In this document: positions 52,375 through 55,774 of the stretch, one piece after another
Numbering within the stretch: position 1 is the first letter of the stretch
How the letters are laid out: every line of letters begins with the position of its first letter
From: Betaproteobacteria bacterium
GTDB taxonomy: Bacteria; Pseudomonadota; Gammaproteobacteria; Burkholderiales; Burkholderiaceae
Length of the DNA stretch: 64,000 bases
Direction: 5' to 3'
NCBI GenBank assembly: GCA_947453825.1
Contig: CANGHN010000001.1
Location: 85,629-149,628, forward strand
Program-made: the position numbers and the translations under genes
Notes under the pieces: generated by a model
Database searches by the model: none
What the model was told of the DNA's origin: nothing
The model's input: only the letters and a program-made list of their open reading frames with translations

Positions 52375-53349
52375 ATGCTCCCCATGTCTATTGCATTCAT
52401 GCAAATAATTCAACGCAGCATTCAAGCCTTGCTTGGACTTAGTCTTTGCTGGGCATTACAAAGCCATGCTCAAACAGTCACTAAGCTCATTGTTCCTACC
52501 GCGCCTGGCGGCGGTACTGATGCGCTATTTAGAGTGGCATCAAAAGATGCCCAACGTTTTATTGGTGGCCCCATCAGCGTTCAAAACGTTGCTGGGGCCG
52601 GCGGCACAATTGGACTGGCTCAAGTGATTAATTCAGTGCCAGACGGATTCACATTGGCTGGAGTCTGGCCTTCACCAGTAACCGTTGTCCCCCAAACTAG
52701 CAAAGTACCTTACACACCGAATGACTATATTCCGGTAATTCAACTTTCTACTGCACCTTATATCTTTTGCGTCTCCCCCGATTTTCCGGCTACTGACGGC
52801 AAATCCTTTATTGAAGAACTACGTAAAAATCCGAAAAAATATACCTACGGTACTGATGGCTTAGGTGGTCCTGCTCAGTTAGCAGCGGAACGGATTTTCA
52901 GAACTCAAAATATCCAGGCTGTTGATGTTCCCTATAAAGGGGCTGGCGAAACTATTATTGGCTTCTTATCCAATCAAATTGATATTTATGTGGGCTCTAT
53001 TCCACCTGTCCTGCAGCATGCCAATATCGGTAAAGCCAAATGCCTCTTATTGTCATCCGCCAATAAAAATGCGCAGTTTCCTAATGCGACTTCTTTAAAA
53101 GAAATTGGGATTGCCAAGGAAGAAACTTTGCTCTGGCGTATCATCCTCGCCCCCAAGGGCACCAAGCCTGAGCGCATCAACCAAATTATAAAAGCTTATA
53201 GCCAAGCAATGAAGGAGCCCGATACCTTGCGCTATTTAGACGAGGTGGGTGAATCTTCTGCTGTACTCACTGGTAAAGAATTACAAGAGAAGTTGAATCA
53301 AGAATATGCAGCTTTTAGTCAGATTGTGAAGACTTTGAATCTGCGCTAA
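52375..53349 (+). CDS. TctC/Bug family substrate-binding protein
   Basis: TKLIVPTAPGGGTDALFRVASKDA..., signal peptide. Confidence 0.93.
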   Translation: MLPMSIAFMQIIQRSIQALLGLSLCWALQSHAQTVTKLIVPTAPGGGTDALFRVASKDAQRFIGGPISVQNVAGAGGTIGLAQVINSVPDGFTLAGVWPSPVTVVPQTSKVPYTPNDYIPVIQLSTAPYIFCVSPDFPATDGKSFIEELRKNPKKYTYGTDGLGGPAQLAAERIFRTQNIQAVDVPYKGAGETIIGFLSNQIDIYVGSIPPVLQHANIGKAKCLLLSSANKNAQFPNATSLKEIGIAKEETLLWRIILAPKGTKPERINQIIKAYSQAMKEPDTLRYLDEVGESSAVLTGKELQEKLNQEYAAFSQIVKTLNLR

Positions 53350-53719
53350 TTGCTGATTGATTAGCTGTCCGCTTTTTATCAGAGGCTACCTTTTGCAATC
53401 TCTGACAATCTTCATTCAGTGTTCCATCATCATTGATGATATTAAATTCTCTACATGGGCTGGGGCGCTCTTCATAGATTGAGCAGCGCCAACCTGCATC
53501 TTCGGTATGTCTTAGGGCTATGCAGGGTGCACCGCCCTTCTCAGTGCCTTTCATGCAGGCTAAGTGCTCTGTGAGCTTCGTTGTCAGCTCGCCCGGAACC
53601 ACTCCAGTGCCATTGCCCGCAATTTCTCCGTGATAAAAGCTCACCCGAAAATGCTGACAACACTGACCGCATTCAAAACAAGGATTTTCCATCGCATCAA
53701 TATATGCGTGAGCTCTCAA
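53315..53719 (-). CDS. YkgJ family cysteine cluster protein
   Basis: NPCFECGQCCQHFRVSF...CSIYEERPSPCREF. Confidence 0.92.
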   Translation of the reverse strand: MRAHAYIDAMENPCFECGQCCQHFRVSFYHGEIAGNGTGVVPGELTTKLTEHLACMKGTEKGGAPCIALRHTEDAGWRCSIYEERPSPCREFNIINDDGTLNEDCQRLQKVASDKKRTANQSAISADSKSSQSD

Positions 53720-53727
53720 AAGAGCAA

Positions 53728-53759
53728 GGGAATAAGGAATCCGTGATTTCCTTATTCCC
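53728..53759 (-). terminator. Strong hairpin, probable terminator of the umuD-umuC-sORF unit
   Basis: GGGAATAAGGAA-tccgtgat-TTCCTTATTCCC, perfect 12-bp arms; minus-strand sequence after it reads TTGCTCTTTTG. Confidence 0.65.
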
Positions 53760-53784
53760 CCTCTGCCTACTGCTATTTCTTTGC

Positions 53785-53916
53785 TTACTGATAATGCCGA
53801 TTAAATACCTGCTTTGTTGCGCCTTCATGACGCTTAGTATTTTTCAAAACTGCGCAATAAGATAGAACCATAATGACTGCGAGTGAGATTCCGTTGAAGT
53901 TATTTAGAAATTCCAT
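53785..53916 (-). CDS. Putative 43-aa single-TM small protein downstream of umuC
   Basis: MEFLNNFNGISLAVIMVLSYCAVLKNTKRHEGATKQVFNRHYQ*, SD AAAGGAG-N6-ATG, 35 bp after the umuC stop. Confidence 0.65.
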   Translation of the reverse strand: MEFLNNFNGISLAVIMVLSYCAVLKNTKRHEGATKQVFNRHYQ

Positions 53917-53951
53917 GTGCTTCTCCTTTATATATTGACTTCGTTAATCAT

Positions 53952-55254: not shown

Positions 55255-55746
55255 TCACTTCCCATTTCTAGCGCTGGCATTGCTGTACTTACGCACCACC
55301 CCAACTACAACTCCCCAAATTTGCAGCTCACTACCTTCACTAAAGGTGATGGGTTGATAACTTGGATTTTCTGGTTGGAGCTCGATACGGCCACGCAGTT
55401 GATAGAGGCGCTTGATGGTGTATTCACCATCAACGACCGCCACCACAATATCCCGATGTTTTGGCTTGAGGGCCTTATCAACCACTACCTTATCGCCATC
55501 ACAAATACCCGCGTCCAACATGGAGTCCCCTTTCACACTGAACATAAAGGTGGCTGGCTTGTTCTGGACCAGATACTGGTTCAAATCAAGGCCATCTTCG
55601 GTGTAATCTGCCGCTGGACTTGGGAATCCAGCGGAAATCCGGTGGCTCAGGAGCCTCATCTCATCGGGGGCAAAATAGACCGCTAAGGCTTGCGGCGCTT
55701 GGCTTAGGGTTGCTTTTGAGGGCTTCATTTGCTGGGTCATAGCCAT
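55255..55746 (-). CDS. umuD: UmuD translesion error-prone polymerase V autoproteolytic subunit
   Basis: Cleavage region [16 protein letters not shown] Ser, TIKRL Lys; followed by umuC. Confidence 0.94.
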
Positions 55747-55748
55747 TA

Positions 55749-55774
55749 ATATACTGTATGTTTATACAGTATAT
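55749..55774 (-). promoter_or_regulatory. LexA/SOS box controlling umuDC
   Basis: ATATACTGTATGTTTATACAGTATAT; core CTGTAT-GTTT-ATACAG (55754-55769), 7 bp from the umuD ATG. Confidence 0.92.

Follow-up and report, generated by a model that had tools for sequence, protein, structure and literature searches.

The SidA protein of Caulobacter is induced through LexA and acts on FtsW/I/N (PMC4211646), and YneA of Bacillus docks on FtsW via its membrane helix (PMC13396833). In E. coli, LexA controls the single-helix peptide DinQ (PMC3567139), and UmuC is retained at the inner membrane, for which other damage-induced proteins may help according to the authors (PMC4552617). Here, we describe a small gene in a stretch of 64,000 nucleotides (the window, meaning the whole stretch of DNA that was analysed), whose genome, a 1.87 Mb assembly, was placed in Polynucleobacter via its umuC relatives. 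This genus is abundant in freshwater. On the minus strand of the window, umuD and umuC are followed by a 35-bp gap, an ORF of 43 aa and a hairpin, and the features of the locus are as follows:

53315–53692, minus strand: gene of the CxxCxxCC family (PF03692), the downstream neighbour (Pfam)
53726–53761, minus strand: hairpin with loop ATCACGGA at 53740–53747, terminator-like in the window (fold and relatives)
53785–53916, minus strand: small-protein ORF, 43 aa, one predicted membrane helix (sequence, genus comparison and helix model)
53923–53929, minus strand: Shine-Dalgarno sequence AAAGGAG, kept in relatives, where it shifts with the start codon
53952–55253, minus strand: umuC, catalytic subunit of Pol V (Pfam IMS, IMS_C and DUF4113)
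55255–55746, minus strand: umuD (Pfam Peptidase_S24)
55754–55769, no strand assigned: LexA box CTGTATAAACATACAG, ahead of umuD (motif scan)

An earlier note on this DNA had placed a 43-aa ORF with an AAAGGAG Shine-Dalgarno sequence 35 bp past the umuC stop, and these coordinates were confirmed. The CxxCxxCC gene is a neighbour outside the umuDC-ORF unit, because its distance varies and because in two lineages that lack the small ORF it lies directly behind umuC. At the other end, the LexA box ends just 7 bp ahead of the first umuD ATG (window 55744–55769), which leaves no space for a Shine-Dalgarno sequence, and umuD therefore likely starts at a downstream ATG or is leaderless.

A conserved small gene behind umuC

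Orthologues of the small ORF with E < 1e-10 (E-values for single short matches being per genome) were found in 92 of 151 Polynucleobacter genomes, 138 of which contain umuC. Almost every species of the main Polynucleobacter lineage carries it, and in all 88 loci read, which were drawn from overlapping genome sets and do not represent 88 independent species, the ORF lies behind umuC on the same strand. The genomes without it are essentially those with a more distant umuC (approximately 74% identity or less), the exceptions being a masked spot in genome G148 (locus L033 looks conspecific) and genomes in which umuC was cut off or lost; behind the umuC of the lineages without the small ORF, no divergent version of it was seen. 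Two divergent copies lie apart from umuC (minus strand, 1635–1757 of locus L160 and 1563–1661 of locus L161), the latter adjoining a MerR-like regulator and a C5 DNA methyltransferase.

The ORF occurs in two start forms, of 43 aa and 47 aa, and the position of the Shine-Dalgarno sequence tracks the start codon. Column entropy is near zero over most of residues 5–29 and high over residues 30–43, with a near-invariant N-terminal and membrane segment (NNFNGISLxxIMxLSYCxVLKNTKR), and dN/dS was 0.058 for this core (residues 5–29; 69 distinct core sequences) and 0.15 for the tail (39-codon set). Judged from these substitution patterns, the reading frame is under strong purifying selection. Given its presence in 92 of the 151 genomes, its synteny with umuC, the Shine-Dalgarno sequence moving with the start codon and the dN/dS of 0.058, the ORF is more than a product of chance, and we are practically certain that it is a genuine gene that had not been named before. 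The proposal of the earlier note thus survives, since the frame is kept downstream of umuC across the genus and bears a synonymous-substitution signature. A chance or decaying ORF lacking function, as its short length and its disruption in a few genomes (G105, L029) might suggest, is contradicted by the dN/dS of 0.06, the kept Shine-Dalgarno sequence and the genus-wide synteny, and is exceedingly improbable.

In these disrupted cases umuC and the small ORF decay together: L029 has a broken umuC and a small ORF without its ATG, and in G105 umuC is gone and a stop codon lies inside the small ORF. The loci with a broken or lost umuC and a decaying small ORF (L029 and L163; G102 and G105) belong to single-contig genomes of approximately 1.7 Mb. 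In one clade (L054, L055, L056, L057 and L059), the C-terminal tail differs (SLLSF type) and the downstream hairpin is absent, as if the 3′ end had been replaced.

Searches beyond the genus returned little. The small protein had no match in NCBIfam or PHROGs and none above the cut-off in Pfam, where DUF4811 (0.07) was the sole family at E up to 1, and among 399 genomes of the family, no convincing relative turned up in other genera, where the matches were weak and had in-frame stops. A phage or plasmid origin was rejected, as neither the phage nor the plasmid collection contained a match to the small ORF. The sole IMG/VR match (L250; IMGVR_UViG_3300025395_000432) carries both umuC and the small ORF and looks like host chromosome. 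The other Burkholderiales umuDC loci read contain no small membrane gene of this family as a third member, no mention of such a gene in umuDC operons was found in the literature, and the third umuDC gene was apparently undescribed before.

Probable LexA control, the downstream hairpin and a putative second promoter in relatives

The LexA box CTGTATAAACATACAG before umuD is a perfect match, every other site in the window having at least two mismatches, and it is also the best LexA site in the window's own genome. The runner-up lies 70 bp before recA, which validates the motif. A box of the same type precedes umuD in every locus that reaches that far, with a single mismatch in L029 and L071. Since a LexA box is present and the window has no terminator-like site between umuC and the ORF, the two are likely co-transcribed. 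SOS control of the umuD-umuC-ORF unit is well supported at the sequence level, and the small ORF very probably belongs to this SOS unit. The earlier statement that a LexA box heads the operon was thus right, the box at 55754–55769 being perfect and of the type found before recA, and the view of the ORF as a third gene of the umuDC unit is well supported by the synteny across the genus, the 35-bp gap, the lack of an intervening terminator-like site and the validation of the LexA motif at recA. As for the suggested SOS-induced membrane effector, the LexA box supports the SOS control, and the effector role is plausible on indirect evidence.

Elsewhere in the window's genome (contig C16, 19888–19920; L280/L281), two overlapping weak LexA-like sites lie approximately 200 bp before mraZ, which opens the cluster of division and cell-wall genes; each has three mismatches, which is about the control rate.

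The hairpin at 53726–53761 comprises 14 pairs and an 8-nt loop (fold z-score −3.3). In a search anchored on the loop ATCACGGA, 82 of the 88 loci had a stem of 12–13 bp with this loop 3′ of the ORF, and the stem was paired with any other loop in none, the loop being unvarying; the remaining six loci either lack the whole hairpin or end too early (L080). Compensatory changes occur in the stem (pairs 6, 7 and 8 among others, counted in an anchored ungapped alignment). The hairpin is single-copy per genome, genome G021 having the locus on two contigs, and a dispersed repeat was rejected on these grounds. A T-rich stretch follows the hairpin in the window. Because many relatives lack a U tract and the loop is invariant, termination alone does not account for the conserved loop; the earlier idea that the hairpin could end the unit holds in so far as hairpin and T-rich stretch are present in the window, but the element is more than a simple terminator. 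Rfam gave no credible match for the region, and the ATCACGGA hairpin possibly adds control at the RNA level.

In relatives, umuC and the ORF are separated by gaps of 31–227 bp. Long gaps hold the palindrome GCTCA-N5-TGAGC, followed after a fixed spacer by a −10 element TATTCT or TAATCT, and this combination lies between umuC and the ORF in approximately half of the relatives and is absent from the window. The strict pattern occurred approximately 95 times in 62 of the 151 genomes, versus 0 for the reversed control. Its fixed geometry and its position before genes suggest that it acts as a promoter. Other genes that lie behind it with short leaders encode a 61-aa membrane protein and a 104-aa exported-looking protein, in one lineage it precedes a WYL-domain regulator, and both divergent ORF copies away from umuC (L160, L161) also sit behind it. 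Patchy islands behind GCTCA-N5-TGAGC-N11-TANTCT (L197–L216, e.g. L198, L203, L205 and L208) contain a WYL regulator, a 61-aa membrane protein, a 118-aa partner gene and 104-aa exported repeat proteins.

Control by a WYL protein was tested because WYL genes adjoin the same promoter and its layout resembles that of DriD promoters. A strict site was found within 200 bp upstream in 17 of 64 WYL loci, and a site not at umuC within 5 kb in 34 of 64. WYL/DriD control of the ORF palindrome was nevertheless rejected: the WYL gene showed no association with the palindrome at the ORF (19/36 vs 21/56; Fisher p 0.2), and of 19 tested genomes that carry the palindrome at the ORF, 18 encode no WYL protein. 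In WYL-less genomes, a relaxed search for further palindrome targets returned mostly just the ORF site.

Close sister species differ in having the palindromic promoter, which is also the promoter type of the mobile-looking WYL-regulator islands. On the umuC tree, the palindrome state requires 20 changes versus 22 for shuffled labels, 41 of 94 umuC pairs with more than 95.5% identity differ in its presence, and the ORF tail, too, often fails to follow umuC. The likely explanation is interspecies recombination over this short segment or repeated loss and reacquisition. In the window, where the gap is of the short form, the umuDC promoter is probably the only one that drives the ORF. One peptide gene might serve two damage or stress circuits, LexA via umuDC in all species and the regulator of the palindromic promoter in approximately half of them, although we consider this rather doubtful. 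Caulobacter divides such roles over two genes, sidA and didA. The presence or absence of the promoter among sister species offers a natural experiment on the rewiring of damage responses.

Candidate functions of the small protein

AlphaFold predicts a single helix over residues 2–40 at modest confidence (pLDDT 70), and the hydrophobic core and the charge distribution, which suggests an N-out, C-in orientation, are consistent with a single-pass inner-membrane peptide. The helix and the short segment on its outer side are constrained and the cytoplasmic tail varies more freely, a pattern that favours a specific membrane partner over a tether for cytosolic UmuC or a pore-forming peptide. We therefore find action through such a partner rather probable, and the divisome is its tentative identity, at well below even probability. 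The small protein probably has a role in the response to DNA damage, which might consist in holding back cell division. Upon DNA damage, LexA would be cleaved and the peptide produced together with Pol V; its near-invariant N-terminal and membrane segment would dock, helix to helix, on one particular membrane protein, for which a late-divisome component (FtsW/I/N type) is the most likely candidate, and septation would be held up while Pol V copies the damaged DNA. LexA-induced SidA and helix-docking YneA are the best precedents for such an SOS-induced delay of septation, a model that, taken as a whole, falls somewhat short of an even chance. Against it, no relationship to division inhibitors was found in the family searches (Pfam, NCBIfam and PHROGs), the further promoter in approximately half of the relatives leaves room for a role independent of Pol V, and TisB and DinQ are other small one-helix SOS peptides with a different action.

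A peptide of this latter kind would lower the proton motive force or alter nucleoid compaction and thereby slow the damaged cell, with the hairpin as a possible regulatory RNA target. SOS control, size and the single helix fit, as does the downstream hairpin with its unvarying loop, but the protein has no Pfam match to toxin families, the Shine-Dalgarno sequence is strong and exposed behind a leader that is short and unconserved in short-gap loci, these loci have no conserved antisense element upstream, and a near-invariant helix that includes polar N, S, Y and K suggests a specific partner rather than a pore, so that we consider this reading unlikely. The tight linkage to umuC across the genus and the joint decay of both genes (L029, G105) would instead suit a Pol V tether or brake, which would limit mutagenesis by confining UmuC (or UmuD2C) to the inner membrane up to the point of UmuD cleavage, in keeping with the inner-membrane retention of E. 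coli UmuC (PMC4552617). Yet conservation is lowest in the cytoplasmic tail, which should be the region that points towards UmuC, two divergent copies lie apart from umuC, and the umuC of related lineages manages without the small ORF, all of which makes a brake improbable. The protein might also assist a membrane process that involves neither division nor Pol V (e.g. envelope stress or phage defence) and ride on SOS induction via umuDC. The second promoter, shared with islands of a WYL regulator, small exported proteins and the 61-aa membrane protein, and the divergent copy beside the MerR-like regulator and the C5 DNA methyltransferase point this way, but nearly all copies remain behind umuC, and we give this possibility a similarly low probability. 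Compared with these alternatives, docking on the late divisome remains our preferred, if tentative, reading.

Comparison with known damage-response systems

The umuDC operons elsewhere likewise consist of a LexA box, umuD and umuC but, in the other Burkholderiales loci read, lack this third small membrane gene, which is thus a conserved addition to the operon in Polynucleobacter and points to a specific protein that could serve this genus as an SOS checkpoint or as a regulator of Pol V. With the functional class of SidA and YneA, it shares a promoter predicted to be LexA-controlled (box before umuD and recA) and a predicted single transmembrane helix. Like SidA, it would be a small LexA-controlled membrane protein of the DNA-damage response (PMC4211646), but it has no family match (Pfam and NCBIfam), its gene lies within the umuDC unit of a betaproteobacterium, and its effect on division is putative. 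YneA is also SOS-induced, and the mode of action proposed for the small protein follows its helix-mediated contact with FtsW (PMC13396833), but YneA requires an extracellular peptidoglycan-binding LysM domain that the small protein lacks. DidA, the SOS-independent division inhibitor of Caulobacter, is controlled by DriD, and in long-gap relatives the palindrome covers the −35 region at a fixed distance to the −10 element, as in DriD promoters (PMC12340889); however, the half-sites differ (ATACGAC-N7-GTCGTAT for DriD vs GCTCA-N5-TGAGC at the small ORF), the promoter is absent from the window, and a WYL activator is missing from 18 of the 19 palindrome genomes tested. TisB and DinQ of E. coli are SOS-induced single-helix inner-membrane peptides as well, but they are paired with antisense RNAs in type I toxin-antitoxin systems (TisB/istR, DinQ/agrB), whereas none is evident at the small ORF, and the protein matches neither their sequences nor a toxin family. 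The analogy that the earlier note drew with SidA, DidA and TisB is thus plausible as a functional parallel and, as far as family searches show, does not extend to sequence kinship. Overall, the small protein appears to belong to a new family whose functional type is known but whose genomic location and regulation are unusual.
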